Assembly: GCF_014302995.1 (NCBI RefSeq)
Contig: NZ_CP060295.1
Span: 1,798,001-1,862,000 of the forward strand
Origin: Variovorax sp. PAMC26660
GTDB taxonomy: Bacteria; Pseudomonadota; Gammaproteobacteria; Burkholderiales; Burkholderiaceae_C
Direction of reading: 5' to 3'
DNA: 64,000 nt
Of the stretch, positions 3,020 through 59,763 are shown one piece after another. Below the pieces are notes generated by a model. It searched no databases, was not told the origin of the DNA, and saw only the letters and a list, made by a program, of their open reading frames with translations. Positions within the stretch are counted from its first letter, which is position 1. Every line of letters begins with the position of its first letter. Position numbers and translations under genes: made by a program.

Positions 3020-3793
3020 CTACATCTCGCGGTCGGGGTCCGGGTAGACCAGGGGCCCCAGCAAACCGCGATTGAAGGGCTTCCACTGGCCCTCGGGCTG
3101 CGCCAGCCGGTCGGCTACCGCGTACAGCACGGCAGGGTGCGCACCCAATCCCAGGTGGCTGGCCATGACCTCGATGTTTTCCGATTGCGGGCCGGTCTTC
3201 TCGATGCTGCAACGCCAGGCGACCACGCCATCGGTGCGACTGAAGATCGAAGTGGTCGGCACCGGCGGCGTGGGCTGCACGAACTTCATGCGGCGCGGGT
3301 CATGCGAACTCTGGCCGCTCACGCCTTCGTACACGCGCCAGGCGTTGGTCGCGCGCGGGCTGCCTGAGAACGGGCTGCCCAGTGTGATGACATTTCGGAT
3401 CAGGTCCGATTGCGCCGATGCCAGCAAGCGCGCATAGACACCACCCAGGCTCCAGCCGATCACGCTGACCTTCTGGCCGCTCTTCTCGTGCAGGGTCTTC
3501 AGCAACTGGACCATGCCGTCTTCCACGCCCTCGCGCGGGCCGAGGTTGCGGCCCAGGCCCCAGCCGTGGGCGTCATAGCCACGGCTGCACAAATAACGGC
3601 GCAGCAGCAGGGTCGATCCATCGCCGGCCACCAGGCCTGGCAGCACGAGCACGGGATGCCCGTCACCGCGCGGCGTGAGCTGCAGCAGCGGCCACATGGC
3701 GATGCCGGCGCCGGTTTCCCAGAGGGCACGGGCCTCGGCCAGCAAGAGCAGGCGCGAGGGTGGCGCGATGTGGTCACGGGTGGCGGTGGTCAT
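3020..3793 (-). CDS. Alpha/beta hydrolase
   Basis: 257 residues. The nucleophile elbow GWSLGG fits GxSxG, with an upstream VLVLPGLVAGDGST stretch that may form the oxyanion-hole side and a late HLGLGAHP that may hold the catalytic histidine. No signal peptide is seen. It is the last gene of a minus-strand run holding a PhaD-like regulator, a phasin, a small unknown protein and a wax ester synthase/DGAT, so a lipase, esterase or storage-polymer role is plausible but inferred. The gap to the upstream regulator is about 86 bp. The substrate is unknown. Confidence 0.8.
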   Translation of the reverse strand: MTTATRDHIAPPSRLLLLAEARALWETGAGIAMWPLLQLTPRGDGHPVLVLPGLVAGDGSTLLLRRYLCSRGYDAHGWGLGRNLGPREGVEDGMVQLLKTLHEKSGQKVSVIGWSLGGVYARLLASAQSDLIRNVITLGSPFSGSPRATNAWRVYEGVSGQSSHDPRRMKFVQPTPPVPTTSIFSRTDGVVAWRCSIEKTGPQSENIEVMASHLGLGAHPAVLYAVADRLAQPEGQWKPFNRGLLGPLVYPDPDREM

Positions 3794-3879
3794 GATGGAT
3801 GTTTCCTTTTTTGGTTTTATCTTCTTCAGGACGAAGTTGGGGCTGCTGGAGCCAATGCCCCGTCGGACAACAGCGACAT

Positions 3880-4515
3880 TTATCCGAGGTATTTGCCCCT
3901 CAGGTAATCAAGGTAAGCCCTTGATTCGCTGGAAACATACGGAGAAACCAGCGTGAGCGTGTAGAAAGCCGCCAAACCGGGGTCAGCCTGCGCCAGCGCG
4001 TCGCGCCCCGGCACGAGCCGCTCGAAAGACAGCCAGCAGGTGGTGGTGAAGACCATCTGCAGCGCCAGGATGCGGGCCTGCTCGGCGCTGGTCTCGATCA
4101 CGCCCGAGGCCACCAGCCCTTCGCACAGCGCCTGCGCCGCGAGCAGGTTCTGCGCGGTGAGCGCCTGTGCGCGCTGCCCCAGTGCCGGGTATTCGCTGGC
4201 CAGGAAGGCCATGTCGCGGTAGATGAAACGGTATTCGTCGATGGCCTCGAAGCGCAGGTGCAGCGCGAGCCAGAGGTCGTCGATGGCGGCAATGGTGGCC
4301 GACGAGCCGTTGAGCGCTTCCATGCGCTGCTCGAAGCGGCGGAACAGCCATTCAACGATCAGTTGCTTGGCCTTGAAGTGGTAATGCAGGTTGCCCGGGC
4401 TCATGCCCAGCTCGGCTGCGATCTTGTGCGTCGACACGGCGGCGAGGCCTTCTGCATTGAACAGCGCAAGGCTGGTCTGCAGGATGCGATCGCGCGTGGT
4501 GTTGGAACTGGCCAC
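3880..4515 (-). CDS. TetR-family regulator resembling PhaD
   Basis: 211 residues. The N-terminal helix-turn-helix (TRDRILQTSLALFNAEG, then STHKIAAELGMSPGNLHYHF) is close in pattern to PhaD, the TetR-type regulator of phasin genes in Pseudomonas polyhydroxyalkanoate clusters. The C-terminal domain is the usual variable ligand-binding helical bundle. It lies 23 bp downstream of the phasin gene and is probably co-transcribed with it, which supports a role in storage-granule control. The ligand is unknown; in PhaD systems it is thought to be an acyl-CoA derivative. TetR membership is certain, the PhaD link is inferred. Confidence 0.85.
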   Translation of the reverse strand: MASSNTTRDRILQTSLALFNAEGLAAVSTHKIAAELGMSPGNLHYHFKAKQLIVEWLFRRFEQRMEALNGSSATIAAIDDLWLALHLRFEAIDEYRFIYRDMAFLASEYPALGQRAQALTAQNLLAAQALCEGLVASGVIETSAEQARILALQMVFTTTCWLSFERLVPGRDALAQADPGLAAFYTLTLVSPYVSSESRAYLDYLRGKYLG

Positions 4516-4538
4516 AACCGGGGGGTGCTGTGGGCCGC

Positions 4539-5027
4539 TCAGCGTTTGCCGCCGCTGCTGCCACGCGGGCCGGCGACGGGCCTCTCTAAGTTTGCGAGGC
4601 GTTCGCGCAGTTGCGCGACCTCGTCGCGCAATGCCTGCACTTCCTGTGCACTCGGCATGCCCAGGCGCTGCATGGCGGTGGCAACGCGCTGGTCGAACAC
4701 GTCCTCGAACTTGCGGATGCCGAAGCTGTCGAGGCTGGGAAAGCCGCGCGTGAGCGGCGCCTTGGCACCCGTTGCATCGACCTTGCCGTGCCCGATGCCG
4801 AGCAGACCTTCGATCACGTTGGCCTGGCGCTTGGCGACGTCGTTGCGCACGTTGTCCAGCGCCTTGAGGCCGGCACGCAGCAGGACTTCGGCCTTGCCGG
4901 GTGCGGCGACTTTCTTTGCAGCGGGCGCCGCCTTGCGGGGCGCTGCTTTCTTCCTGGCCGCTGGCGCCTTCTTTGCAGGCACCGCCTTCTTCTTCAACTT
5001 TGCAGTTTCGTCAGGACGGGTCGCCAT
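4539..5027 (-). CDS. Phasin-family (PhaF/PhaI-like) granule-associated protein with Lys/Ala-rich N-terminal tail
   Basis: 162 residues. Residues 1-45 are a lysine/alanine/proline repeat (KKAVPAKKAPAARKKAAP), the kind of histone-H1-like segment that lets PhaF bind DNA. The rest is a polyhydroxyalkanoate-granule phasin domain (VLLRAGLKALDNVRNDVAKR, then FEDVFDQRVATAMQRLGMP) ending in a coiled coil (VQALRDEVAQLRERLANLE) that fits phasin oligomerisation. In Pseudomonas PhaF the basic tail is C-terminal; here it is N-terminal. Known phasins coat storage granules and PhaF links them to the nucleoid. A terminator at 5045-5074 separates it from the upstream gene. Confidence 0.85.
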   Translation of the reverse strand: MATRPDETAKLKKKAVPAKKAPAARKKAAPRKAAPAAKKVAAPGKAEVLLRAGLKALDNVRNDVAKRQANVIEGLLGIGHGKVDATGAKAPLTRGFPSLDSFGIRKFEDVFDQRVATAMQRLGMPSAQEVQALRDEVAQLRERLANLERPVAGPRGSSGGKR

Positions 5028-5044
5028 GCAGTGCTCCAGATGCC

Positions 5045-5074
5045 GGAAAAAAGAAAAGGGGCGCCGGGCGCCCC
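5045..5074 (-). terminator. Rho-independent terminator between the two granule-protein genes
   Basis: A GC-only inverted repeat (GGGGCGCC / GGCGCCCC, one-base centre) at 5058-5074, followed on the minus strand by a T-rich run (TTTTCTTTTTT). It lies just past the stop of the 5080-5640 gene and should reduce read-through into the phasin gene. Confidence 0.75.
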
Positions 5075-5079
5075 GGGGG

Positions 5080-5640
5080 TCAGGCTGCCTTGCGGGCAGC
5101 AGCGCGGCGAACCGGCTTCTTGGCCGCAGCGACCTTGGCCTTCACGGTACGCACCGGCTTGGCAACAACGGCTTCGCCGCCGACGCGTGCTTCGATCTGC
5201 TTGGTGCCGGCGACGATCTTGTCGGCGATCTGCACCGAGACAGTGGCGATCGGCTGGTGGATGGCGCTCAGGGTGTTGATGACCGAAGTGGCCACCGGCG
5301 ATTCGACGCGGGCCACGCGGCCGGCCACGGTTTCAATGCCGCTGGTGGTGCCGGCGGCAACGCGGTCCATCACGTTCACGATGCGGCTGGTGTCGATGTC
5401 CAGGCGGTTGGCCAGGAAACCGTTGATCTTTTCCTGCGCGCCGATCAGGTTGGCCTTGACCTGCGCGCTCATCAGCGGGATCTGGCGGTTGCCCAGGAAG
5501 TTGCTGTAGCGCGAAGCGGCGCCGCCCAGCAGGCGATGCACGCCGGTGCGGTAGGCGCCGACCAGGGTCTTGCCTGCGTCGTTGTACTGGCCGACGACGT
5601 GGATGGCGGCGGAAGCGATGGTGGTTTGCGTGGTGGACAT
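5080..5640 (-). CDS. Unknown protein with Lys/Ala-rich C-terminal tail, storage cluster
   Basis: 186 residues with no family I can name. The body is amphipathic and helix-rich (GFLANRLDIDTSRIVNVMDR, then VINTLSAIHQPIATVSVQIA) with no signal peptide, which would suit a granule-surface protein. The last 30 residues are an H1-like tail (KVAAAKKPVRRAAARKAA), similar in composition to those of the phasin and the wax ester synthase either side. A ribosome site (AAGGAA on the minus strand) precedes the ATG. Its place between a phasin and a neutral-lipid synthase suggests a granule or DNA-tethering role, but this is inference only. Confidence 0.75.
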   Translation of the reverse strand: MSTTQTTIASAAIHVVGQYNDAGKTLVGAYRTGVHRLLGGAASRYSNFLGNRQIPLMSAQVKANLIGAQEKINGFLANRLDIDTSRIVNVMDRVAAGTTSGIETVAGRVARVESPVATSVINTLSAIHQPIATVSVQIADKIVAGTKQIEARVGGEAVVAKPVRTVKAKVAAAKKPVRRAAARKAA

Positions 5641-47035: not shown

Positions 47036-47051
47036 TGGACCATTTGGTCAA
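47036..47051. promoter_or_regulatory. RutR operator upstream of rutA
   Basis: TGGACCATTTGGTCAA matches 13 of 14 defined positions of the E. coli RutR box TTGACCANNTGGTCAA. It lies 102 bp before rutA and 53 bp before the sigma-54 promoter. Confidence 0.85.
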
Positions 47052-47152: not shown

Positions 47153-48265
<1,113 letters not shown>

Positions 48266-48279
48266 AGAAGGAGACGCAC

Positions 48280-49071
<792 letters not shown>

Positions 49072-49092
49072 TTCACTTCAAGGAGTTCCCGA

Positions 49093-49485
49093 ATGCCCAA
49101 GCAAGCCATCATCCCGCCCGGCACCGGCGTGCCGCTCGCCCCTTACGTCCCCGGCACGCTCGCCGACGGCGTGCTCTACGTCTCGGGCACGCTGCCCTTC
49201 GACAAGGACAACAACGTGGTCCATGTCGGCGACGCCGCCGCGCAAGCGCGGCACGTGCTCACCACCATCCAGGGCGTGGTCGAAGCCGCCGGCGGCACCA
49301 TGGACGACGTGACCTTCAACCAGATCATGCTCAAGGACTGGGCCGACTACGCGAAGATCAACGCGGTGTATGCCGACTTCTTTCCCGGCACCAAGCCCGC
49401 GCGCTATTGCATCCAGTGCGGCCTCGTGAAGCCCGATGCGCTGATCGAGATTGCCTCGATCGCCCACATCGGCAACAAGGCCTGA
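49093..49485 (+). CDS. rutC: 3-aminoacrylate deaminase RutC (RidA family)
   Basis: 130 residues. [40 protein letters not shown] and the C-terminal [20 protein letters not shown] are those of RutC. The RidA fold deaminates the toxic enamine aminoacrylate to malonic semialdehyde. An 82-bp gap with a small repeat follows before rutD. Confidence 0.95.
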
Positions 49486-49497
49486 ACGCCATGAGCG

Positions 49498-49560
49498 CCG
49501 CGCCGGGCCGCCCCAAGCAAGCTCGCTCCCGCCTGGCGGGAAGGCGCGTAGCGCCAAAGG
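49498..49560. repeat. Small GC-rich intergenic element inside the rut operon
   Basis: A run of short inverted units (GGGCCGCCCC, CTCCCGCCTGGCGGGA, GGCGCGTAGCGCC) between rutC and rutD. It resembles the REP-like elements that I associate with Variovorax intergenic regions. It could form RNA hairpins that lower expression of the distal genes. Confidence 0.5.
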
Positions 49561-49567
49561 TGCACCA

Positions 49568-50383
49568 ATGACCGCGCTGCACTACGAGGTGCACGGGCCG
49601 TCCGATGCAGCGGCCACCGTGCTGCTGTCATCCGGCCTCGGCGGCTCGGCCGGTTTCTGGCAGCCGCAACTCGGCACGCTGGTCGACGCGGGCTACCGCG
49701 TCGTCGCGTACGACCAGCGCGGCACGGGCCGCAGCCCCGCCGCATTGCCCGAGGCCTATGCGATTGCCGACATGGCGCGCGATGTGATTGAAATACTCGA
49801 CGCCACGAACACCGCGCAGTGCCACTTCATCGGTCATGCGCTCGGTGGACTGGTCGGCCTGCAGCTCGCACTCGATGCGCTCCAACGCATTGCCAGTCTG
49901 GTGCTCATCAACGCATGGTCGAAGCCCAACCCGCATTCGACGCGCTGCTTCGATGCGCGGCTCACGCTGCTGAGCGCCAGCGGCCCGCGTGCTTACGTGG
50001 AAGCGCAGCCGATCTTTCTGTACCCCGCCGCGTGGTGTGCCGAACACGCGCAACGCGTGGCCGATGAAGTCGACCACGCCTTCGCGCATTTCCCCGGCGA
50101 GACCAACATGCGCGCGCGCATCGCCGCGCTGCGCGCCTTCGATATCGACGCGCGCCTGGCCGACATCGCCGCCCCCACGCTGGTCGCCGCCGCCAAGGAC
50201 GACGTGCTCGTGCCCTGGACCTGCTCGCAGCGCCTGGCCGATGGCCTGCGCGACGTGACGCTCGACTTCATGCCGCACGGCGGCCATGCGCACAGCGTGA
50301 CCGAGGCCAACGCCTTCAACCGCAGCCTGCTCGACTTTCTCTCGCGGGTCAGCGCACCCGCCCAATCCACAGTCCCCGCATGA
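49568..50383 (+). CDS. rutD: RutD, alpha/beta-hydrolase-fold protein
   Basis: 271 residues. [40 protein letters not shown] and [20 protein letters not shown] align with E. coli RutD, in which the nucleophile serine is likewise replaced by alanine (GHALG). [11 protein letters not shown] and [10 protein letters not shown] complete the fold. It speeds aminoacrylate handling in vivo by a mechanism not fully settled. Its stop overlaps rutE in an ATGA. Confidence 0.94.
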
Positions 50384-50976
50384 CCACCACATCCACGCTC
50401 GACGACGCAGCCCTGTCGCTTCTTTTCACCGGCGCGCGCAGCCACAACGGCTGGACCGACGAACCGGTGTCCGACGCGCAACTGCAGCAGATCTACGCGC
50501 TGGCCAGCCTCGGCCCGACCTCGGCCAACTGCTCGCCCGCGCGCTTCGTGTTCGTGCGAACGCCCGAAGGCAAGCAACGCCTTGCGCCCGCACTGTCGAA
50601 GGGCAACCTCGACAAGACCATGACGGCGCCGGTCACCGTGATCGCCGCATGGGACCGCAAGTTCTACGACAAGCTGCCCACGCTGTTTCCGCATGCCGAT
50701 GCGCGCAGCTGGTTCACCGGCAGTCCCGAGGCCGCACACGAGACCGCCTTTCGCAATGCCAGCCTGCAGGCCGGCTACCTGCTGCTCGCGGCGCGCGCCG
50801 TGGGCCTGGACGCCGGCCCGATGTCGGGCTTCGACAAGTCGAAGGTCGATGCCGCCTTCTTCGAGGGCACCGACTGGAGCGTCAACTTCCTCATCAACCT
50901 CGGCCACGGCGATGCGTCGAAGGTGTTCAGCCGCCTGCCGCGGTTGCCCTTCGACGAAGCCTGCCTGCTGGCCTGA
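50380..50976 (+). CDS. rutE: Malonic semialdehyde reductase RutE
   Basis: 198 residues, nitroreductase fold. [40 protein letters not shown] and [20 protein letters not shown] match RutE. It reduces malonic semialdehyde to 3-hydroxypropionate with NAD(P)H, removing a toxic product. It is translationally coupled to rutD. Confidence 0.95.
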
Positions 50977-50989
50977 AAGCGTCACCGAC

Positions 50990-51538
50990 ATGCTGAACGC
51001 GATGGCCTCTCATCCCCTTGCACCGAACCCGACAGGACTGCCGCCCGGCTTGCCCAAGGCCGACTACCGCAATGCGATGGCGCGGCTGGGCGCGGCGGTC
51101 AACATCATCACCACCGACGGCCCCGCGGGACGCGCCGGCTTCACAGCCTCGGCGGTATGCAGCGTGACCGACGAACCACCGATGCTGCTGGTGTGCCTGA
51201 ACCGCTCGGCCTCGGTGTACCCGGCTTTCAAGGCCAACGGCGTGCTGTGCGTGAACGTGCTGGCCGCGGGGCACCAGACGCTCTCCGCGCTGTTCGGCGG
51301 CAAGACGCCGATGGACGAACGCTTCGCGGCCGGCAACTGGAGCCGCAAGACCACCGGCTCGCCGATGCTCGACGACGCGGCCGTGTCATTCGACTGCCGC
51401 GTGCTGCACGCCACGCATGCGGGCACGCACGATGTGCTGTTCTGCGAAGCGGTGGCCATTGCCATCGGCGGTGCGGCGCAGGGGTTGATCTACTTCGATC
51501 GCCGCTATCACGAGATCGCGGTGCCGCCGCAGCACTGA
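50990..51538 (+). CDS. rutF: Flavin reductase RutF
   Basis: 182 residues from the ATG at 50990; a second ATG at 51002 is possible. [40 protein letters not shown] and [19 protein letters not shown] are the flavin-reductase-like domain. It supplies reduced FMN to RutA. No RutG-type uracil permease follows; the nearest transporter is the BMP-type ABC system downstream. Confidence 0.95.
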
Positions 51539-51591: not shown

Positions 51592-52344
51592 CTAGCGTGG
51601 CGTGATGCCTTGAAGCACGATGCGCTGAACGTTCTCCACCGTCTGCTCGAAGAACGCCGCATCGTCCAGCGTGTGCCCCGTCAGCGCCTGCACCTGCACA
51701 CCGAAATCCGCGTAGTGCTGCGTGACCGCCCACAACGCAAAGATCAGGTGATGCGGATCGACCGGCGCGAGCTTGCCGGCCTCGACCCAGGCACGAATCA
51801 CCTCCGATTTTTTCTCCACCAGCGTGCGCAGCTCTCGGTCGAGTTCGTCGCGCAACAGCGGCGCACCCTGGATCATTTCAAGACAGAACAAACGCGATGC
51901 ATCCGGCCGATCGCGCGAGACCAGCAGCTTGCGACGGATGTAATCGCCAATGGCCTCGCCCGGGTCCTGCTCGGCGCTGAAGCCGCGCAGCGGTTCGAGC
52001 CACAGCGCGAGCAGGTCGCGCAGCACGTTGACGTACAGCTCTTCCTTGTTCGCGAAGTAATAGAGCAGGTTGCTCTTCGACACATCGGCGCGCGCAGCCA
52101 CCTGGTCGATCGACGTGCCGTGCAGCCCGAACCGGGAGAACAGCCCCAGCGCGGCACCGAGGATCGCGCTGCGCTTGTCTTCGATCTGGCGCAGTCGCCG
52201 GCTCACGGCGGACGCGCTGCGCACCGCGGGCTTCGCTCGTTTGCGCGCCGGCTTGTCGGTGGTGATGTTGCTGCTGCTGGCTGCGGCCAGCGCCTTGGTC
52301 TTCGGCATCTTCCCTCGTTTCTTCTGGATTCCGGATTCACTCAT
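51592..52344 (-). CDS. rutR: Pyrimidine-responsive TetR regulator RutR
   Basis: 250 residues. After a variable Lys/Ala-rich N-terminus, KRSAILGAALGLFSRFGLHG, SIDQVAARADVSKSNLLYYF, RLFCLEMIQGAPLLRDELDR and DPHHLIFALWAVTQHYADFG follow E. coli RutR closely to the end (VENVQRIVLQGITPR). Uracil and thymine are the known ligands that release it from DNA. Three overlapping ATGA units sit at the start, so the exact initiation codon is uncertain; an ATG at 52308 is also possible. Confidence 0.95.
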   Translation of the reverse strand: MSESGIQKKRGKMPKTKALAAASSSNITTDKPARKRAKPAVRSASAVSRRLRQIEDKRSAILGAALGLFSRFGLHGTSIDQVAARADVSKSNLLYYFANKEELYVNVLRDLLALWLEPLRGFSAEQDPGEAIGDYIRRKLLVSRDRPDASRLFCLEMIQGAPLLRDELDRELRTLVEKKSEVIRAWVEAGKLAPVDPHHLIFALWAVTQHYADFGVQVQALTGHTLDDAAFFEQTVENVQRIVLQGITPR

Positions 52345-52498: not shown

Positions 52499-52514
52499 TT
52501 GTCCATTTGGTCCA
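52499..52514. promoter_or_regulatory. RutR-like operator upstream of the IPNS-like gene
   Basis: TTGTCCATTTGGTCCA matches 12 of 14 defined positions of the RutR box and ends 2 bp before the sigma-54 -24 element. It lies between rutR and the divergent dioxygenase gene. Confidence 0.7.
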
Positions 52515-52516
52515 AC

Positions 52517-52531
52517 TGGCACAGACGTTGC
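52517..52531 (+). promoter_or_regulatory. Sigma-54 promoter of the second pyrimidine-linked operon
   Basis: TGGCAC-N5-TTGC with GG-N10-GC spacing, a full consensus match, 39 bp before the dioxygenase start. The preceding TCCAA is shared with the rut promoter. Confidence 0.85.
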
Positions 52532-52570
52532 ATGGAGAAGTACACACACGCCACGCATGAGAAACGCCCC

Positions 52571-53572
52571 ATGACTCTCTTGTCCGTTCCCATCATCGAT
52601 CTCGCGCCCTATTTCGACGGAAGCCCCGAAAGCCGATCGGAGGTCGCGAAGAAAGTCGACGAAGCCTGCCGCAGCATCGGCTTCCTGGTCATCACCAACC
52701 ACGGCATTCCTGCGGAGCTGATCTCGCGCGTGGCCACGCTGTCGCGCAAGTTCTTCGACATGCCGCTCGGCGAGAAGCGCAAGGTCGACCGTCCGCGCGA
52801 GGACGCGGTGCGCGGCTACAGCGCGGTCGGCGAAGAGGGCCTGTCGTACAGCCTCGAAGAGGCGGCGCCGGGCGACCTGAAGGAATCGTTCTCCATCGGC
52901 CCATCGAACGTGCCCGACGACGACTACCACCGCGGCCCCGCAGCCGGCCCGCACTTCGAGCCCAACAGCTGGCCGCCCATCGACGGTTTCCGTGAAGCAT
53001 ACGAAGGCTACTTCGAGGCCATGAGCGATCTCTCGCGCTCGCTGATGCGCATCTTTGCGCTCGGCCTGGCGCTGCCCGAAAAGTTCTTCGACGACAAGAT
53101 CGACCGGCACATCAGCATGTTCCGCGTGCTGAGCTACCCGCCGCAACGCGAGGCACCGTTGCCCGGCCAACTGCGTGCGGGCGCGCACAGCGACTACGGC
53201 AGCCTCACCATCGTGTTGCCCGACGACAAGGGCCTTCAGGTGTTCAACAAGGCCGGCCAGTGGGTCGATGTGCCGCAGGTCGAAGGTGGTCTGGTCGTCA
53301 ACATTGCCGATCTGATGATGCAGTGGACCAACGACCAGTGGGTGTCGACGCTGCATCGCGTGGTCAATCCGCCCTTCGAGATGGCGAGCACCAACCGCCG
53401 GCAGTCGCTGGTGTTCTTCCACCAGCCCAACTACGACGCGATGGTCGAGTGTCTGCCGAGTTGTCTGGCACCGGGAGAGGCGCCGAAGTACGCACCGATC
53501 TCGTCGGGGAATCACCTGATCTCGAAGTTCGTCAAGCAGACGACCTTCGGGGGCACCAAGGCGACGGCCTGA
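52571..53572 (+). CDS. IPNS-like 2-oxoglutarate/Fe(II) dioxygenase
   Basis: 333 residues from the ATG at 52571; an earlier in-frame start would overlap the promoter. The DIOX_N region (VPIIDLAPYFDGS, GFLVITNHGIP) and the jelly-roll core with HxD (His206, Asp208 in GAHSDYGSLTIV), distal His262 (LHRVVNP) and the 2OG-binding RxS (Arg277, Ser279) are intact. The family includes plant-type oxygenases and fungal thymine 7-hydroxylase. A RutR/sigma-54 promoter and the downstream nucleoside-type transporter suggest it oxidises a pyrimidine or related ring. This is inference. Confidence 0.9.
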   Translation: MTLLSVPIIDLAPYFDGSPESRSEVAKKVDEACRSIGFLVITNHGIPAELISRVATLSRKFFDMPLGEKRKVDRPREDAVRGYSAVGEEGLSYSLEEAAPGDLKESFSIGPSNVPDDDYHRGPAAGPHFEPNSWPPIDGFREAYEGYFEAMSDLSRSLMRIFALGLALPEKFFDDKIDRHISMFRVLSYPPQREAPLPGQLRAGAHSDYGSLTIVLPDDKGLQVFNKAGQWVDVPQVEGGLVVNIADLMMQWTNDQWVSTLHRVVNPPFEMASTNRRQSLVFFHQPNYDAMVECLPSCLAPGEAPKYAPISSGNHLISKFVKQTTFGGTKATA

Positions 53573-53647
53573 ATGATGGTTTTCTTCTCGATTCGTCGCG
53601 TCGTGTTTGAAGTGCGTCGTTCAGGGCGGTGCTCACGCCGACACGGT

Positions 53648-53703
53648 GCTCTTTTTCGCGAATGTCCCCCGCTTCGCTCCTCCTTTATTTCGCGAAAAAG
53701 AGC
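53648..53703. repeat. Hairpin element 1 (15-bp stem around a shared core)
   Basis: GCTCTTTTTCGCGAA and its exact complement enclose a 26-base loop. The 36-bp core at 53658-53693 recurs as an exact inverted copy at 53797-53832. Confidence 0.9.
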
Positions 53704-53768
53704 CCCGTATCGACGTGAGCGTTATTCGGAGCAGTCGTTGATCGCTGGATCAATAGCAGCGTGTCCAG

Positions 53769-53860
53769 GTGCGAATGACACCGGGTGCTCCCCGCAGCGA
53801 AATAAAGGAGGAGCGAAGCGGGGGACATTCGCGGAGGGGAGCACCCGGTGTCATTCGCAC
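53769..53860. repeat. Hairpin element 2 (25-bp stem around the inverted core)
   Basis: A perfect 25-bp inverted repeat (starts GTGCGAATGACACCGGGTGC) encloses a 42-base loop that holds the inverted 36-bp core. The whole 53573-53906 gap (334 bp) is otherwise empty; frames through it are only by-products of the repeats. Confidence 0.9.
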
Positions 53861-53906
53861 GTACCCCGAACAGCAGCGCCAAGAACACCAGCAATGATCA
53901 ACTGAC

Positions 53907-54293
53907 ATGCCCCACCTCTCCTACGTCAACGTCTTCGCCAAAGACGTGGTCGCACTCAGCGGCTTCTACCAACGCGTGTTCGGCTTCCCCGAAATCGAGG
54001 CCATCCGCTCGCCGATCTTTCGTGGACTCGACACCGGCAAGTCGAGCCTGGGCTTCAACGCACTCGACGCCTACGAGCTGCTGCACCTTGCCGAGTTCTC
54101 CGACACGCGCGGCGTGAAGTTCCTGCTGAACATCGACGTCGACAGCCAGGCCGACGTCGACCGCATGGTGCCCGTCGCACTCGAAGCGGGCGCCACGCTC
54201 ATCAAGCCGCCCTACGTCACTTACTACAACTGGTACCAGTCGGTGCTGCTCGATCCCGAGGGCAATGTGTTCCGCATCAACTTCATGATGTGA
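53907..54293 (+). CDS. VOC family (glyoxalase/dioxygenase-fold) protein
   Basis: 128 residues, two beta-alpha-beta-beta-beta units: LSYVNVFAKDVVALSGFYQR and, in the second, VKFLLNIDVDSQADVDRMVP, ending YNWYQSVLLDPEGNVFRINF, where the Glu of PEGN is a usual metal ligand. VOC proteins catalyse isomerisation, epimerisation or ring cleavage on small metabolites. Its place between the dioxygenase and the transporter suggests it acts on the same substrate or product. The specific reaction is unknown. Confidence 0.88.
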   Translation: MPHLSYVNVFAKDVVALSGFYQRVFGFPEIEAIRSPIFRGLDTGKSSLGFNALDAYELLHLAEFSDTRGVKFLLNIDVDSQADVDRMVPVALEAGATLIKPPYVTYYNWYQSVLLDPEGNVFRINFMM

Positions 54294-54363
54294 CGCGCAC
54301 ACGGCACCGCCCTTCTCTTTCCTCCTGCATTTCCTTGTCATGCCTCTCACGAAAGGTTGCTCC

Positions 54364-55467
54364 ATGCTGCTGCGCACTCTCACTCCCGGCTTCGGCCTTG
54401 CCTTGACGCTCGCAGCAGGCGGCGCGTCCATCGCGCTGCCGGCCACGGCGGCCGACGGCTTCACGCTGAAAGACAAGCCCAAGATCGCCATGCTCTACTT
54501 CGGCCCGAAGAACGACGGCGGCTGGACACAGGCCTTCGACGAAGCCCGCGTGAAGATCGAGAAAGAAATCGGCCAGAAGATCCAGTTCGTCGAGAACGTG
54601 CCCGAAGACGCCTCGGCCATCAAGCCCGCGGCCGAGAAGTTCATCCAGCGCGGCGCCAACATCGTGATCGGCACCGCCTTCGGTTATTCCGACAGCTTCA
54701 AGGACCTGGCCGCCAAGTACCCCGACGTGGCCTTCCTCAACGGCTCGGGCACCACCAACGGCAGTAACCTCGAATCGTTCTACGGCCGCACCTACGAAAG
54801 CCAGTACCTGTGCGGCATGGCCGCTGGCGCGGCCTCGAAGACCGGCAAGCTCGGCTTCGTCGCGGCCAACCCCTTCGGCGTCGTGAACTGGACCATCAAC
54901 GCCTTCGCACTCGGTGCGCAGAAGATGAACCCCAACGCCACGGTCAACGTGATCTACACCGGCGCCTGGAACGACCCCATCAAGGAACGCGCTGCCGCCG
55001 CCGCGCTGATCGACCAGGGCGCCGACGTGATCGGCCAGCACGTCGACAGCCCGACGCCGCAGATCGTGGCGCAGGAGCGCGGCGTGTACGGCACCGGCCA
55101 CCACCGCGACCTGCGCCAGTTCGCGCCGAAGGCCACGCTGTGCTCGTCGGTGTGGGTGTGGGACCGCTTCCTGACGCCCGAGCTGAAGAAGGTCATGGCC
55201 GGCAACTGGAAGCCCTCGCCATACGGCGCCTTCATCGAGATGAAGGACGGCGGCACGGACATCGCCGGCTTCGGCCCCGCCGTGCCCAAGGACAAGGCCG
55301 CGCTGATCACGGCGGAACGTGAAGCGATCCTCAAGGGCAAGCAGATCTACGCCGGCCCCCTGGCCGACCGCGATGGCAAGGAGCGCGTGGCCAAGGGCGC
55401 GGTGCTGTCGGATGCGGACCTCTGGAAGATGGACTGGTTCGTCAAGGGCGTGGTCACGCAGAAGTAA
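54364..55467 (+). CDS. BMP-family ABC transporter substrate-binding protein
   Basis: 367 residues from the ATG at 54364. A signal peptide (TPGFGLALTLAAGGASIALP) precedes the BMP/PnrA fold: KIAMLYFGPKNDGGWTQAFD, ANIVIGTAFGYSDSFKDLAA, YESQYLCGMAAGAASKTGKL and GADVIGQHVDSPTPQIVAQE. Proteins of this family bind purine or pyrimidine nucleosides and related compounds in the periplasm. It is the first of four linked transport genes. Confidence 0.93.
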   Translation: MLLRTLTPGFGLALTLAAGGASIALPATAADGFTLKDKPKIAMLYFGPKNDGGWTQAFDEARVKIEKEIGQKIQFVENVPEDASAIKPAAEKFIQRGANIVIGTAFGYSDSFKDLAAKYPDVAFLNGSGTTNGSNLESFYGRTYESQYLCGMAAGAASKTGKLGFVAANPFGVVNWTINAFALGAQKMNPNATVNVIYTGAWNDPIKERAAAAALIDQGADVIGQHVDSPTPQIVAQERGVYGTGHHRDLRQFAPKATLCSSVWVWDRFLTPELKKVMAGNWKPSPYGAFIEMKDGGTDIAGFGPAVPKDKAALITAEREAILKGKQIYAGPLADRDGKERVAKGAVLSDADLWKMDWFVKGVVTQK

Positions 55468-55486
55468 GCCAGCAGCCAAGGACCTC

Positions 55487-57013
55487 ATGCCCAACGCGCT
55501 CGAACTCACCGGCATCCGCAAGTCCTTCGACGGCTTCGCGGCATTGACCGACGCCCACTTCGCCGCGCGCTGGGGCGAGGTGCACGCCCTGCTCGGCGAA
55601 AACGGCGCCGGCAAGTCGTCGCTGATGAACATCGCGGCCGGGCTCTATGCGCCGGAGGCGGGGCAACTGCTGGTCGATGACAACCTGGTGCGCTTCACCG
55701 GGCCACGCGATGCGGCGCGGCACCGCATCGGCATGGTCCACCAGCATTTCAAGCTGGTGCGGCCGTTCACGGTGGCGCAGAACATCCTGCTCACAGCACC
55801 GCCGCCGGCCGAGTTCCAGAGCCACGGCGAGCGGCTGCGCGAGATCGAACGCGACATCCGCAACAAGGCCTCGGAGCTGGGCTTCGAGATCGATCCGTCC
55901 AGGCGCATCGATGCCCTCTCGATCGCTGAACAGCAGCGCGTGGAAATTCTCAAGGTGCTGCTGGCGGGTGCGCGCATCCTCATCCTCGACGAGCCCACGG
56001 CCGTGCTGACCGACCAGGAGGCCGCACGCCTGCTGCAGACCGTGCAGGGGCTGGCGCGTGCCGGTGCCGCCGTGGTGCTGGTCACGCACAAGATGGCCGA
56101 CGTGAAGACCTATGCCGATCGCGTGACGGTGATGCGTGGCGGCCGCACGGTGGCCACGCTGGAGCCGGGCGCCACGTCGGTGACCGAACTCGTGAAGCTG
56201 ACGGTGGGCGAGTCCGTCGCGGCATCCGGCTTCCAGCCCGCGAAGGCGGCGCGCGGCCCGGTGCGCCTGACGGTGCGCGGGCTGCGCTCGCCCGCTTCGC
56301 CGCAAGGGCGGCGCGTGCTCGACGGTGTCGACCTCAAACTGCACGCGGGCGAAATCTACGGCCTTGCCGGCGTGGGCGGCAACGGTCAGGGCGAATTGGC
56401 CGGCGCCATCATGGGCTTGCCGGGCGAAGCGACCGAAGGCGAGATCCGGCTCGAAGGGCATGGCGATCTCAAGACGATGCCTGCACCGGCGCGGCGCGGC
56501 CTCGGCATTGCCGCGATTCCGGCCGACCGCTACGGCCTCGCGCTCGCGGGCGGCCTCTCGGTGGCGGAGAACTACGCCATCGGCCGCGTGCACAGCGGGC
56601 GCTATGGCCCGGTGTGGCATCTGCGCCGTGGTCGCATCCAGAGCGACACGCAAGAGGCCGTGCGCGCCTTCGACGTGCTGGGCGTGCGCTCGGTTGCACA
56701 GAAAGCCGCGCTGCTGTCGGGCGGCAACGCGCAGAAGCTGGTGCTGGCGCGCGAGTTCGGCAAGTCGCCGACGCTGGTGCTGGCGCACAGCCCCAGCCGT
56801 GGGCTCGACGTGCGCGCCAGTGCCGAGGTGCATGCGCGGCTGCGCGCCGCGCGCGACAGCGGCGCTGCGGTGCTGCTCATCAGCGAAGACCTCGACGAAG
56901 TGCTGCAACTGGCCGACCGCGTGGGCGTGATGACGCGCGGGCGCATCGCCGGCGAGTTCGCGCAACCGGCCGACCGGCAGGCCATCGGACAGGCGATGGT
57001 GGACCATGGCTGA
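55487..57013 (+). CDS. ABC transporter ATPase, two-domain (nucleoside/sugar type)
   Basis: 508 residues with two fused ATPase domains. The first has Walker A GENGAGKSS, signature SIAEQQRVEILK and Walker B ILILDEPTAVLT. The second has an altered Walker A (GVGGNGQGE), signature LSGGNAQKLVLARE and a degenerate Walker B (LVLAHSPSRGLD), the usual asymmetric pattern of this family. It powers the permeases encoded next and overlaps the first by 8 bp. Confidence 0.94.
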   Translation: MPNALELTGIRKSFDGFAALTDAHFAARWGEVHALLGENGAGKSSLMNIAAGLYAPEAGQLLVDDNLVRFTGPRDAARHRIGMVHQHFKLVRPFTVAQNILLTAPPPAEFQSHGERLREIERDIRNKASELGFEIDPSRRIDALSIAEQQRVEILKVLLAGARILILDEPTAVLTDQEAARLLQTVQGLARAGAAVVLVTHKMADVKTYADRVTVMRGGRTVATLEPGATSVTELVKLTVGESVAASGFQPAKAARGPVRLTVRGLRSPASPQGRRVLDGVDLKLHAGEIYGLAGVGGNGQGELAGAIMGLPGEATEGEIRLEGHGDLKTMPAPARRGLGIAAIPADRYGLALAGGLSVAENYAIGRVHSGRYGPVWHLRRGRIQSDTQEAVRAFDVLGVRSVAQKAALLSGGNAQKLVLAREFGKSPTLVLAHSPSRGLDVRASAEVHARLRAARDSGAAVLLISEDLDEVLQLADRVGVMTRGRIAGEFAQPADRQAIGQAMVDHG

Positions 57014-58163
57014 CGCATCGCTGGCCGCCGACATGGCACATCCTTCCCAAGCAAAACCCGCGGCGCCTGCAGTCGCGCGAACAGCACAACCGCTCGCCGG
57101 CCGTCGCTATGCGCTGGAAATCCGCCAGCACATGGCATGGCGCTGGCAGGCGCTGATCCTTGCGGCCGCACTGGCGGTCGGTTTCGCCATCTCCGCCGCG
57201 ATCCTCGTGGCGGCGGGCGTGCCTGCCGACGAACTCGCCAACGAGTTCGTGGTGCAGACCTTCCTCGATGGGCAGAACTTTCGCGCCGTGCTGTTCCAGG
57301 CCGCGCCGATGATCTTGGTGGGCCTCGCGGGCTCGATGGCCTTTCGCGCGCGCTTCTGGAACCTCGGGCTCGAAGGCCAGATGATCTGGGGCGCCATCGG
57401 CGCCACCGCCGTCTCGATGTGGCAGATCGGCCCCGAGAACCTGCGCCTGCCGCTGATGTTCGTGGCGGCCGTGGGCTGCGGCCTGCTCTGGGTGCTGGGG
57501 CCGGCGTGGCTCAAGCTGAAGCTGGGCGTGAACGAGATCATCTCGACGCTGATGCTCAACTACATGGCGGCCAACTTCCTCCTGCACCTGGTCTATGGCA
57601 GCTGGAAAGACCCGAAGGACAACTTTCCGTACTCACCGCAATTCCGCGCCTTCGAGCGACTGCCCGAGCTGGGCGCCGGCGTGGGCAGCGCGATCCTGCT
57701 CGCGGGCATCGTGGCGCTGCTGGCGTGGTGGCTGGTGGGCGTGAGCCGCGCGGGGCTGTACCTGCGCTTCGTCGATGCCAACCCGCGCGTGGCGCATGCC
57801 AACGGGGTGCCGGTGCGTCGCACCATCTATGGCGCGGTGCTGCTGTCGGGCGCAATGGCCGGGCTCGCGGGCTTCGCGGTGGCGGCAGGACAAGAGGGGC
57901 GGCTCACGCAGGCCTTCTATCAGGGCTACGGCTTCTCGGGCATCCTCATTGCCTTCCTCGCGCGCAACAACCCGTTGGCAGCCACTGTGGTGGCACTGCT
58001 GGTGGCGGCGCTGTTCGTCACCGGGCGCAGCCTGCAGGTTTTCTACCAGGTGCCGTTCTCGATGGTGCAGTTGATCCAGGCCATCATCGTGGTGTGCGTG
58101 GCGTCGAGCGACTTCTTCATTCGCCACCGGCTGCGCCGCGTCGGCGGGGAGGCCGTGGCATGA
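57006..58163 (+). CDS. ABC transporter permease 1 (BMP/nucleoside type)
   Basis: 385 residues. After a 55-residue cytoplasmic start come about nine membrane helices; LGVNEIISTLMLNYMAANFL and GYGFSGILIAFLARNNPLAA are conserved in nucleoside-type permeases (YufP/NupP-like). It pairs with permease 2, coupled through an ATGA. Confidence 0.93.
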   Translation: MADASLAADMAHPSQAKPAAPAVARTAQPLAGRRYALEIRQHMAWRWQALILAAALAVGFAISAAILVAAGVPADELANEFVVQTFLDGQNFRAVLFQAAPMILVGLAGSMAFRARFWNLGLEGQMIWGAIGATAVSMWQIGPENLRLPLMFVAAVGCGLLWVLGPAWLKLKLGVNEIISTLMLNYMAANFLLHLVYGSWKDPKDNFPYSPQFRAFERLPELGAGVGSAILLAGIVALLAWWLVGVSRAGLYLRFVDANPRVAHANGVPVRRTIYGAVLLSGAMAGLAGFAVAAGQEGRLTQAFYQGYGFSGILIAFLARNNPLAATVVALLVAALFVTGRSLQVFYQVPFSMVQLIQAIIVVCVASSDFFIRHRLRRVGGEAVA

Positions 58164-59092
58164 GCGGAGGTGTCATCCTCAACTGGCTTGCGAGCACACC
58201 CGACTTCGCGGTGCCTTATGCGCTGGCGGCGCTCGGGCTCATCATCTGCGAGCGCGCGGGCGTGCTCTCGCTCGGCGCCGAAGGGCTGATGCTGGTCGGC
58301 GCGCTGGCCGGCATCGGCGCGCAACTGGCGCTCGGCCAGCCGGCGGTGTCGCTGGTGCTGGCGATGCTCGCGGCCAGCCTCGTCTCGGTGCTGTTCGCGG
58401 TCATGGTGATCTGGCTGCGTGTGAACCAGGTGATCGCCGGGCTCGCGCTGGTGTTCTTCTGCCAGGGGCTGACCGCGCTGGTCGGCTCGATGGCCGACTG
58501 GACCAACCACGCCACCGAGGGCATCGGCGCCATGGGCCTGTGGCCGCTGTCGCTGCTGCCTGGCGTAGGCAAGTTGTTCATGCAGAACGCGATGGTGTGG
58601 CTCACGCTGCCGATCTTCGGCGCGGTGGCGTGGTTCTTCACGCGCACCTCCACCGGCCTGCGGCTGCGCGCCGTGGGCGAGAACCCGCAGGCCGCCGACG
58701 CGGCCGGCATCCGCGTGACGGCATGGCGCTTTGCGGCGGTGCTCGCGGGCTCGGCGCTGGTGGGGCTGGCGGGTGCGTACATCTCGGTGGTCAGCACCAA
58801 GCTGTGGATCGCGGGCATGACGGGCGGACGCGGCTGGATCGCGGTGGGTCTGGTGATCTTCGCGCGCTGGTCGCCGTGGAAGGCGCTGGTGGGTGCGCTG
58901 CTGTTCGGCTGCATCGAGGCGCTGATCCCGCAACTGGCCGCAGCGGGCGTGCAACTGCCGCAGTACTTCGTGATGATGACGCCCTACGCGGTGACGCTGG
59001 GCGTGATGGTCTGGGTCGCGCTCTCGCGGCGCGGCGCCGATGAAGAGCCCGGCGCGCTGGGCCAACCCTATGTGCGGGAGGAGCGGCGATGA
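58160..59092 (+). CDS. ABC transporter permease 2 (BMP/nucleoside type)
   Basis: 310 residues. About nine helices; GLIICERAGVLSLGAEGLML, VNQVIAGLALVFFCQGLTAL and GGRGWIAVGLVIFARWSPWK are typical of YufQ/NupQ-like permeases. It forms the channel with permease 1. Its stop overlaps the following hydrolase gene (ATGA), tying that enzyme to uptake. Confidence 0.93.
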   Translation: MSGGVILNWLASTPDFAVPYALAALGLIICERAGVLSLGAEGLMLVGALAGIGAQLALGQPAVSLVLAMLAASLVSVLFAVMVIWLRVNQVIAGLALVFFCQGLTALVGSMADWTNHATEGIGAMGLWPLSLLPGVGKLFMQNAMVWLTLPIFGAVAWFFTRTSTGLRLRAVGENPQAADAAGIRVTAWRFAAVLAGSALVGLAGAYISVVSTKLWIAGMTGGRGWIAVGLVIFARWSPWKALVGALLFGCIEALIPQLAAAGVQLPQYFVMMTPYAVTLGVMVWVALSRRGADEEPGALGQPYVREERR

Positions 59093-59763
59093 AGGCCTGG
59101 GTCTATGGCGAAGAGCGCACGCTCGACAACGCGCAGTTTGCCGACTACCTCGATCCGGCCACCACCGCGGTGCTGTCGATCGACATGCATCGCGGCCACC
59201 TGGACGACGACCCCGACTGCCCCTGCCCCGCGCCGCGTGCGCGGGACGTGGTGGCGCCCATCGACAGCTTCCATGACGAGGCGCGTGCGCTGGGCGTGCG
59301 CATCGTGCACATCAAGTCGGTGCTGCGGCCCGATGGCGTGGACGACATCCACGGCATTCCGGCCGCGTGGCGCCGTACCTTCCCATTGCACGTGGGCGCA
59401 ATTCCGAATGCCGACGCGCATGCCATCGAAGGCTCGCGCTGGACCGAATGGGTCACCCGTGTCGAGCCCGGCGACATGCGCGTGGAAAACAAGCGCCGGC
59501 TGTCGGCCTTCTATCCGACCGACCTCGACTTCCTGCTGCGCAACCAGCGCATCCAGACCGTGGTGCTCGACGGCGGCTTCACCGATTGCTGCGTGCTCAA
59601 CACCGCCTTCGACGCCAACAACCACAACTACCGCGTGATCGTGCTGCGCGACCTGGTGCGCGGCACCGACGCGCATCTGGAAAACGCGGCGCTCGCGATG
59701 GTGTCGCTGCACCTCGGGCTGGTGGTCGACTCGGCGGAATTGCTGCGCCAATGGCGCGGTTAG
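59089..59763 (+). CDS. Cysteine hydrolase, isochorismatase-like (RutB/biuret-hydrolase group)
   Basis: 224 residues. The catalytic triad is Asp32 (LSIDMHRGHL), Lys135 (VENKRRLSAFYPTDLD) and Cys168 (GGFTDCCVLNTAFDA). The group cleaves amide or ureido bonds in ureidoacrylate, N-carbamoyl compounds, biuret and similar products of nucleobase breakdown. It has the metal-like cysteine/aspartate loop DDDPDCPCPAP near the N-terminus, which is uncommon. Its ATGA link to a nucleoside-type permease and the RutR-type promoter suggest it acts on a ring-opened product. Confidence 0.9.
   Translation: MKAWVYGEERTLDNAQFADYLDPATTAVLSIDMHRGHLDDDPDCPCPAPRARDVVAPIDSFHDEARALGVRIVHIKSVLRPDGVDDIHGIPAAWRRTFPLHVGAIPNADAHAIEGSRWTEWVTRVEPGDMRVENKRRLSAFYPTDLDFLLRNQRIQTVVLDGGFTDCCVLNTAFDANNHNYRVIVLRDLVRGTDAHLENAALAMVSLHLGLVVDSAELLRQWRG

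Follow-up and report, generated by a model that had tools for sequence, protein, structure and literature searches.

What does a conserved set of genes lying next to the rut operon contribute to pyrimidine catabolism? The DNA analyzed here, a 64,000-nucleotide stretch of Variovorax sp. PAMC26660 (contig NZ_CP060295.1, positions 1,798,001 to 1,862,000; hereafter the window), comes from a genome made of a single contig of 7.39 Mb. Between window positions 52571-59763 lie, all as open frames, genes for an IPNS-like 2-oxoglutarate (2OG)/Fe(II) dioxygenase (DIOX), a vicinal-oxygen-chelate-fold protein (VOC), a four-gene BMP-type ATP-binding cassette (ABC) importer and an isochorismatase-like cysteine hydrolase (HYD). 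We refer to this group as the module. In the reading that we favor, and to which we assign a probability of about 0.45, the importer, DIOX and a VOC lyase would demethylate a methylated pyrimidine and feed the product into the Rut pathway. Clearly more probable is the less specific proposition that the module is a RutR-linked, pyrimidine-directed unit for import and oxidation, with no reaction named. An earlier note on this DNA had pointed to a sigma-54- and RutR-linked route beside rut that imports and oxidizes a pyrimidine-type ring, an idea that the data below support. All the genes it named are present, and the ATGA overlaps it described were found at 58160 and 59089:

52571..53572, + strand: DIOX, IPNS-like 2OG/Fe(II) dioxygenase, 333 aa, with DIOX_N and 2OG-FeII_Oxy domains
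53573..53906: DIOX-VOC spacer containing inverted repeats of the REPIN type, their arms at 53645-53693 and 53797-53845
53907..54293, + strand: VOC, vicinal-oxygen-chelate-fold protein, 128 aa (Pfam PF00903, PDB relative 2rbb)
54340..55467, + strand: BMP-family (Bmp) substrate-binding protein, with an AtzT-like site lacking the purine-contacting Glu
55487..57013, + strand: ABC transporter ATPase, with two ABC_tran stretches
57006..58163, + strand: ABC permease 1 (PER1)
58160..59092, + strand: ABC permease 2 (PER2)
59089..59763, + strand: HYD, isochorismatase-like cysteine hydrolase (Asp32-Lys135-Cys168), an optional module member

The start of DIOX was placed at the ATG at 52571 because aligned orthologues begin at or near this codon; position 52499, taken as the start in the earlier note, is an upstream TTG. 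The calling of open reading frames was rough in this GC-rich DNA, and antisense frames were listed as well.

The module is a real conserved unit. Scanning an 84,980-species collection with DIOX yielded 313 relatives that could be confirmed, and the analysis used the best 80; the closest named ones were from Variovorax. Counts of neighboring genes omit loci whose contig ends before the gene in question (the others being termed testable). VOC lies behind DIOX in every one of the 78 testable loci, and farther downstream lie genes for the BMP protein (77/78), the ATPase (75/77), PER1 (71/73), PER2 (70/72) and HYD (55/70). In addition, rutR is in view in 67 of the 80 loci and rutA in 61 of 77. The loci include Variovorax, Pseudacidovorax, Xenophilus, Paraburkholderia, Pararobbsia, Paracidovorax, Pseudomonas, Stutzerimonas, Halopseudomonas and Alkalilimnicola. 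It could be argued that chance or shared ancestry accounts for the proximity of these genes and that they have no joint action, inasmuch as 35 of the 80 loci are from Variovorax, so that the counts are not independent. This interpretation is strongly disfavored by the persistence of the gene order in several genera of Comamonadaceae and in Paraburkholderia, Pararobbsia, Pseudomonas, Stutzerimonas, Halopseudomonas, Alkalilimnicola and even Tistrella, whose binding protein is 45% identical.

The association with rut is close. In a sample of 200 genomes of the same family, 12 have rutA and 11 the module DIOX (at least 60% identity), with an overlap of 11; the module occurs in no genome of this sample without rutA (Fisher's p 3e-17, a measure of association and not of independent events). 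The DIOX count leaves out G109 (56%, on a 7-kb contig with no VOC match) and G129 (49%), and the DIOX and rutA counts are taken to refer to one and the same set of 200 genomes. Co-conservation, whose absence the earlier note had named as grounds for abandoning its proposal, proved very strong. A search for rutA was also made in 17 module genomes, namely those of 14 of the 16 loci without rutA in view plus L039, L089 and L113, the last of which shows rutA in its own locus; L104 and L128 were omitted, their genomes showing rutA. Matches were found in 14 of the 17 (partial ones only in the L111 and L113 genomes). Since each of the three others has a dihydropyrimidinase over cut-off, all 17 carry a Rut or a reductive-uracil gene; the dihydropyrimidinase search covered 10 of 11 chosen genomes, L049 being left out. 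In the case of Paracidovorax wautersii (L098), which belongs to these three, a rutR relative (72%) adjoins the module. Elsewhere the proteins are rare: VOC relatives were found in 5 of 398 genomes sampled across the phylum and 8 of 300 across the order (own genome included), and DIOX, at E<=1e-85, in 2 of 369 sampled across the class, one being the window's own.

These figures also bear on an alternative in which the importer is Rut's uracil importer and the other three proteins, DIOX, VOC and HYD, deal with by-products of Rut that are toxic or have stalled, for example peroxyureidoacrylate, methylureidoacrylate or malonic semialdehyde. Such a role is in line with the presence of the module in 11 of the 12 rutA genomes of the family sample, with the fact that no rutG is seen in the cluster and that none of the three genes read ahead of rutA in the window encodes a transporter, and with the occurrence of second isochorismatases of two kinds. 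We nonetheless consider it quite unlikely: the module persists in three genomes that gave no rutA match, some xanthine operons contain DIOX-VOC pairs that do not have Rut genes as neighbors (see below) and, conversely, family genome G022 has rutABCD and rutR with no module found in the 20 kb around; E. coli, which has rut, is not known to carry the module either.

What reaction might DIOX catalyze? Residues H206, D208, H262, R277 and S279 are invariant in 12 aligned rows, confirming the intact HxD...H...RxS signature described earlier, and the HxD..H triad and S279 are kept in 24 of 24 rows. An AlphaFold2 (AF2) model of the protein is fair (pLDDT 82). The best PDB match is fungal thymine 7-hydroxylase (T7H), with 173 bits in a single-sequence search (phmmer) and 213 bits with a profile. 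Reciprocally, when T7H is compared with 33 bacterial members of the family, its top 11 matches are without exception module DIOX proteins, and in a tree T7H is sister, with moderate support (84/83) and on a long branch, to a 19-row group comprising module DIOX and six other relatives. The thymine-hydroxylase lead of the earlier note gains sequence support from these results. Equivalents of the T7H HxD..H motif and of Arg190, Tyr194, Arg286, Ser288, Tyr217 and Phe292 are kept in DIOX, and three T7H contacts are changed in the window protein (Asn87 to Val, Glu122 to Ser and Asn294 to Gln). In T7H, Asn87 and Glu122 are needed for the second and third oxidations, their mutation sparing the first, which leads to the prediction that DIOX would hydroxylate its substrate once and then stop. 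T7H can also N-demethylate.

The same similarity could be taken to indicate a fungal-type thymine route, in which DIOX would oxidize the 5-methyl group stepwise to 5-carboxyuracil, VOC or an unlinked enzyme would decarboxylate the latter, and the uracil would go to Rut, methylated Rut intermediates being avoided. T7H is indeed the nearest solved relative and picks out module DIOX proteins as its 11 best of the 33 bacterial members; the Tyr/Phe base sandwich and the 2OG residues are kept, and the link to RutR and rut is in place. The residues replaced, however, include the two that T7H requires for the later oxidations, no isoorotate-decarboxylase-like gene is seen in the module, and related DIOX-VOC pairs in purine settings (see below) would have no C-methyl substrate to act on. 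Furthermore, RutA is reported to accept and cleave thymine (PMC7662398), which also weakens the earlier suggestion that thymine is a compound that RutA handles poorly, as does the presence in this genome of a likely reductive pyrimidine operon. On balance, stepwise oxidation of thymine appears unlikely, and decarboxylation of isoorotate by VOC was retained only as part of this alternative.

VOC is the best conserved member of the module (78-97% identity to the window protein in 10 other rows). It scores 33.9 bits against PF00903 (cut-off 20.6) and 235 bits with PDB relative 2rbb, which bears a generic name only; its AF2 model is good (pLDDT 85), with the order of strands and helices expected for a beta-alpha-beta-beta-beta fold. 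At the four positions that we take, from VOC enzymes, to be the usual metal ligands (6, 57, 73 and 123 here), the window protein has Tyr6, Glu57, Leu73 and Arg123 and so lacks the four-ligand set of metal-dependent VOC enzymes (glyoxalase I, extradiol dioxygenase, FosA). Throughout an alignment of 21 rows, extending down to 36% identity, position 73 is Leu, Tyr, Phe or Met and position 6 (visible in 20 rows) Tyr, Phe, Met or Trp, never His or Glu in either case; position 123 is Arg in all 21. With three of the four ligand positions gone, loss of the metal is likely, if not proved. Lys100, Tyr106, Tyr107, Gln111 and Arg123 are invariant in the 21 rows.

The nature of the imported compound can be approached through the binding protein. 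Its best solved relative is AtzT (E 2e-67), TmpC being far weaker (E 4e-7). AtzT was found with guanine bound and has an affinity of ~110 nM for this base (PMC6834077). Nucleoside import, the default assumption for BMP systems and the one made in the earlier note, was dropped, since the closest solved relative binds a base. The Tyr45/Trp194 sandwich of AtzT is kept as Trp/Trp in the window protein, and the polar contacts Ser97, Glu165 and Asn220 are changed to Ala, Val and Asp; the combination of sandwich, Ser97, Glu165 and Asn220 that marks purine/triazine binding of the AtzT type is absent. Six module binding proteins (the window's and five more, one of them 45% identical) share W/A/F/W/H/D at the AtzT site. 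Position 97 is Ala in all six; position 165 is Val, Leu, Gln, Val, Pro and Gln, and in a 12-row alignment Val in 11 rows, Ser in one and Glu in none. Ser97 and Glu165 are kept in AtzT, in Brucella 3s99 and in the binding proteins of L171, set among adenosine and 8-oxoguanine deaminases, and L146, set beside a urate hydroxylase; of two Shinella binding proteins, one keeps Glu165 and one (L150a) does not. These changes favor a non-purine base and speak against the purine analogue that had been put forward as a possible substrate. The NCBIfam model for vitamin B6 BMP transporters (ABC_BMP_B6) gives 54.2 bits, against a cut-off of 400.

Two further alternatives turn largely on the importer. In the first, DIOX would hydroxylate the sugar of an imported pyrimidine nucleoside, so that the base falls out for Rut. 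Fungal deoxyuridine/uridine 1'-hydroxylases act on nucleoside sugars, the BMP family includes nucleoside binders, the scaffold of DIOX is T7H-like, and an AMP nucleosidase gene follows the Tistrella module. The far greater proximity of the binding protein to base-binding AtzT than to TmpC, the fact that the xanthine permease partners of related pairs carry bases and the lack of any visible lactone- or ribose-handling gene make this scheme improbable. In the second, the substrate would be a purine, a methylxanthine or an s-triazine, and the rut neighborhood incidental. AtzT is again the nearest relative, clusters of the methylxanthine type with Rieske, urate hydroxylase and NCS2 genes contain more distant relatives of DIOX, and HYD weakly resembles biuret hydrolase; but Glu165, kept in AtzT, 3s99, L171 and L146, is missing from all six module proteins, RutR-like boxes are shared with rut, and co-occurrence with rutA is near-perfect in the family sample. 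We regard this second scheme as very improbable.

Related DIOX-VOC pairs are found in other settings. L173 has the order xanthine permease-DIOX-DIOX-VOC-XdhAB (xanthine dehydrogenase); L151 and L173 are apparently the same contig and were counted once. In L143, from Rhodococcus, the order is xanthine permease-DIOX-DIOX-VOC, and in L171 DIOX and VOC precede an 8-oxoguanine deaminase gene, with adenosine deaminase and BMP-ABC genes upstream. Pairs near Rieske oxygenases occur in L170, L174 and L175, the last also near a creatininase. Natural purines carry their methyl groups on nitrogen, and for this reason the thymine (C-methyl) reading does not carry over to the purine settings. One chemistry that would suit them in common is N-demethylation, with the methyl group leaving the nitrogen of a cyclic amide. 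Because the related pairs serve xanthine-type operons, N-methylated uracil or thymine appears the likeliest substrate of the module, the C5-methyl group of thymine being the next candidate. A bolder generalization, which we put forward tentatively and regard as doubtful, is that DIOX and the metal-free VOC constitute a portable nucleobase-demethylation cassette in which DIOX produces a stable hydroxymethyl base and VOC is a hydroxymethyl-nucleobase lyase, the pyrimidine version being wired to Rut via RutR and a BMP importer without the purine Glu, and the purine version sitting with xanthine permease and xanthine dehydrogenase. We know of no description of a hydroxymethyl-nucleobase lyase activity.

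More distant DIOX relatives (36-39% identity) accompany Rieske, NCS2, OmpK or HpxO genes in L145, L146, L147 and L148, clusters carried on plasmids of Moraxella, Pseudomonas, Acinetobacter and Klebsiella. By our own reading of their gene content, these clusters would be of the methylxanthine type; no role is known to us for their dioxygenases.

Is the module regulated together with rut? The relevant elements and genes of the window are as follows:

47036..47051, + strand: RutR-like box upstream of rutA, TGGACCATTTGGTCAA
47103..47119, + strand: sigma-54-like promoter of the rut operon, CTGGCACGGCGCATGCA, 2 mismatches
47153..51538, + strand: rutABCDEF as a whole
47153-48265, + strand: rutA (TIGR03612, 716 bits, cut-off 498)
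48280-49071, + strand: rutB (TIGR03614, 407 bits, cut-off 378)
49093-49485, + strand: rutC, named by position and co-conservation only
49568-50383, + strand: rutD, named by position and co-conservation only
50380-50976, + strand: gene in the RutE role, reaching the malonic semialdehyde reductase model
51002-51538, + strand: rutF (TIGR03615, 264 bits, cut-off 255)
51592..52344, - strand: rutR, divergent from the module (PRK15008, 296 bits, cut-off 230)
52499..52514, + strand: RutR-like box of the module, TTGTCCATTTGGTCCA, directly 5' of the -24 element
52516..52532, + strand: sigma-54 promoter of the module, CTGGCACAGACGTTGCA (CTGGCAC-N5-TTGCA)

The rutR product reaches one of two RutR models, its score with the other (TIGR03613, 314.5 bits) being below the cut-off of 368. 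Searches were made with consensus sequences that we presume to be those of RutR and sigma-54. The sigma-54 promoter and the adjacent RutR-like box of the earlier note are both present, and they recur: a sigma-54 site (<=1 mismatch) lies upstream of DIOX in 58 of the 80 loci, versus 6 of 400 control windows drawn from these loci, and a RutR-like box (<=1 mismatch) in 57 of 80, versus 12 of 400. Within the window itself the sigma-54 match is at chance level (1 found, 0.70 expected), and RutR-like boxes with <=2 mismatches occur at 8 places versus 1.78 expected. Genome-wide, the loose RutR-like box is barely above control and not specific. The module is probably under the same control as rut, responding to nitrogen limitation and to a pyrimidine signal; NtrC and RutR would be the mediators.

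The likely reductive pyrimidine operon lies elsewhere in the genome (G000:C1:1135342-1142544; L188 3343-10545). It encodes a PreT-type protein (with the Fer4_20 domain of dihydropyrimidine dehydrogenase and Pyr_redox), an NCS1 transporter, a dihydropyrimidinase and an amidase of the hydantoinase/carbamoylase family, and a weaker RutR-like box is found ~70 bp before its first gene.

HYD stands somewhat apart. In an alignment of 54 tblastn segments of >200 residues plus the window protein, D32, K135 and C168 are invariant in 55 of 55 rows, which bears out the intact Asp-Lys-Cys triad ascribed to it earlier. Its description as a RutB-like core enzyme fared less well: HYD scores 47.6 bits against the RutB model TIGR03614 (cut-off 377.95), and no copy of it was found farther down the locus in 15 of the 70 testable cases, for which reason a core role was dropped. 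The NCBIfam BiuH model gives 66 bits (cut-off 370). DxHRGHL and CPCP segments are likewise invariant in the 55 rows and possibly form an extra metal or specificity site. A different isochorismatase lies near the module in two loci where HYD was not found (L117 8373-9017 and L094 17521-18177), with ~109 bits to the RutB model against its cut-off of 378.

From the gene content, conservation, shared regulatory sites and ligand-site and metal-ligand changes observed above, we infer a class of substrate, a position of hydroxylation, a reaction for VOC and a role for HYD along the following lines. The module would be a front end to pyrimidine catabolism, probably induced with rut through nitrogen limitation (sigma-54) and release of RutR. 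A modified pyrimidine base would enter by the BMP-ABC importer, and DIOX, using 2OG, O2 and Fe(II), would hydroxylate its methyl group, most likely once, to give a hydroxymethyl base. VOC, probably metal-free, would bind this intermediate and act as a lyase, yielding formaldehyde and the plain base, uracil or thymine, which would pass to RutA. HYD might cleave the ureido product of a side substrate and would be dispensable.

A number of points weigh against this scheme. On the side of the enzymes, DIOX is only distantly similar to T7H (173 bits and a long tree branch), an EFE-like enzyme comes second and nearly as good (166 bits single-sequence, 203 bits profile), and the one direct side-chain hydrogen bond that T7H makes to the base, through Asn87, is lost. 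Position 57 of VOC is Glu in 11 of 21 rows, the window's included, and the lyase role suggested for this protein is argued from context and residues. HYD is unexplained by a plain demethylation scheme, and the module has no formaldehyde-oxidizing gene. As to the link with Rut, 13 of the 80 loci have no rutR in view, nine of them Stutzerimonas or Pseudomonas metagenome-assembled genomes; Stutzerimonas DIOX promoters keep a sigma-54-like site and have no clear RutR box; 3 of the 17 module genomes searched have no rutA match; and the RutR-like box with 1 mismatch occurs at 26 places genome-wide, against 18 for the reversed control. The preponderance of Variovorax among the loci belongs here too, linked genes traveling together. 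The source genome holds both Rut and the likely reductive operon with its own NCS1 transporter, and RutA, as mentioned, reportedly cleaves thymine. Finally, no reported activity was found in the literature for any member of the module clade.

When conserved neighbors were clustered, none of the 60 largest clusters was judged to represent a further partner found repeatedly in different genera. The second downstream dioxygenase was masked in this analysis and counted separately: an IPNS-like protein, 30-32% identical to DIOX, it is present in 18 loci, including L058 (16864-18966). In 17 of the 18 it lies beyond HYD and is followed at some distance by a match to a transporter ATPase; in L058, where alone this was checked, a binding protein of the SBP_bac_6 type separates the two, and in L095 the second dioxygenase sits between two BMP genes. 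In L036 (Xylophilus), two genes are inserted between VOC and BMP (3333-5365), one for a flavoprotein and the other for an AllA-like protein of the ureidoglycolate lyase family (PF04115, 54 bits). They suggested a ureido route, an idea that was dropped because the two genes were seen in one genome only (L036, the same record type as L089); the AllA-like protein had no match in the plasmid collection. The DIOX-VOC spacer of the window measures 334 bp and is REPIN-like; the median gap is 8 bp in 78 loci, exceeding 150 bp in 6 of them. A 29-nt core of these repeats is matched genome-wide at 169 places in the forward and 168 in the reverse orientation (<=2 mismatches), and the reversed control has no match. 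Neither DIOX nor VOC had a match in NCBIfam or in PADLOC, the latter result leading us to drop an anti-phage role for the module; VOC had no match in phages.

If the favored reading is correct, the Rut pathway gains an upstream branch with a dedicated importer, a VOC family with a solved but generically named structure (2rbb) acquires a function, and the dioxygenase-plus-lyase logic of demethylation, shown for methylguanidine, extends to nucleobases. On the bolder cassette reading, soil bacteria would have here one means of recovering nitrogen from methylated nucleic-acid bases and purine alkaloids without Rieske demethylases. The recycling of modified pyrimidines by bacteria is, to our knowledge, poorly described, and no description of the module was found in the open-licence papers searched.

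Several known systems invite comparison. With NcT7H (PDB 5c3p), DIOX shares the IPNS-like 2OG fold, the metal triad, the 2OG-contacting Arg, Ser and Tyr, Arg190 and the equivalents of the Tyr217/Phe292 base sandwich. It differs from NcT7H at Asn87, Glu122 and Asn294, at Tyr324/Arg328 of helix alpha10 (His/Lys in DIOX), and in belonging to a bacterial operon with an importer and VOC. The BMP-type importer of the atrazine plasmid has in common with that of the module the binding-protein family, with its aromatic sandwich, and sigma-54 control, which is reported for the AtzT operon (PMC6834077) and predicted for the module from sequence; it is set apart by its guanine/triazine contacts Glu165 and Ser97, Val and Ala in the module protein, and by its neighbors. 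Plasmid clusters of the methylxanthine (caffeine) type likewise have DIOX relatives near NCS2, OmpK, BMP and N-demethylase-type Rieske proteins, but their setting is one of purines and Rieske enzymes, and the stretches read carry no annotation of rut or RutR. BiuH and RutB are, like HYD, isochorismatase-like Asp-Lys-Cys hydrolases, although HYD scores far under the cut-offs of both and its DxHRGHL and CPCP segments are its own.

The MgdH/MgdL system of Vreelandella (PMC12508155), encoded in a guanidine operon, is a precedent for the logic proposed for the module, and the comparison is one of logic. There, the 2OG hydroxylase MgdH converts methylguanidine to an unexpectedly stable hydroxymethyl product, which is split by MgdL, for which acid-base catalysis by Asp and Arg is proposed (PMC12508155). 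Both systems combine a 2OG/Fe(II) dioxygenase with a dedicated partner and an ABC importer, in an operon co-regulated with a nitrogen-assimilating pathway for the demethylated compound. They differ in substrate, in the partner (MgdL has its conserved residues, including the catalytic Asp49/Arg51, inside a beta-barrel model, whereas the module partner has the VOC fold) and in control, exerted by guanidine riboswitches in one case and attributed to RutR/sigma-54 sites in the other. As for the Rut pathway itself, no module protein is a Rut component, HYD not being RutB; yet the rut operon adjoins the module, carries the same kind of RutR-like box and sigma-54-type promoter, and is accompanied by the module in 11 of the 12 rutA genomes of the family sample.

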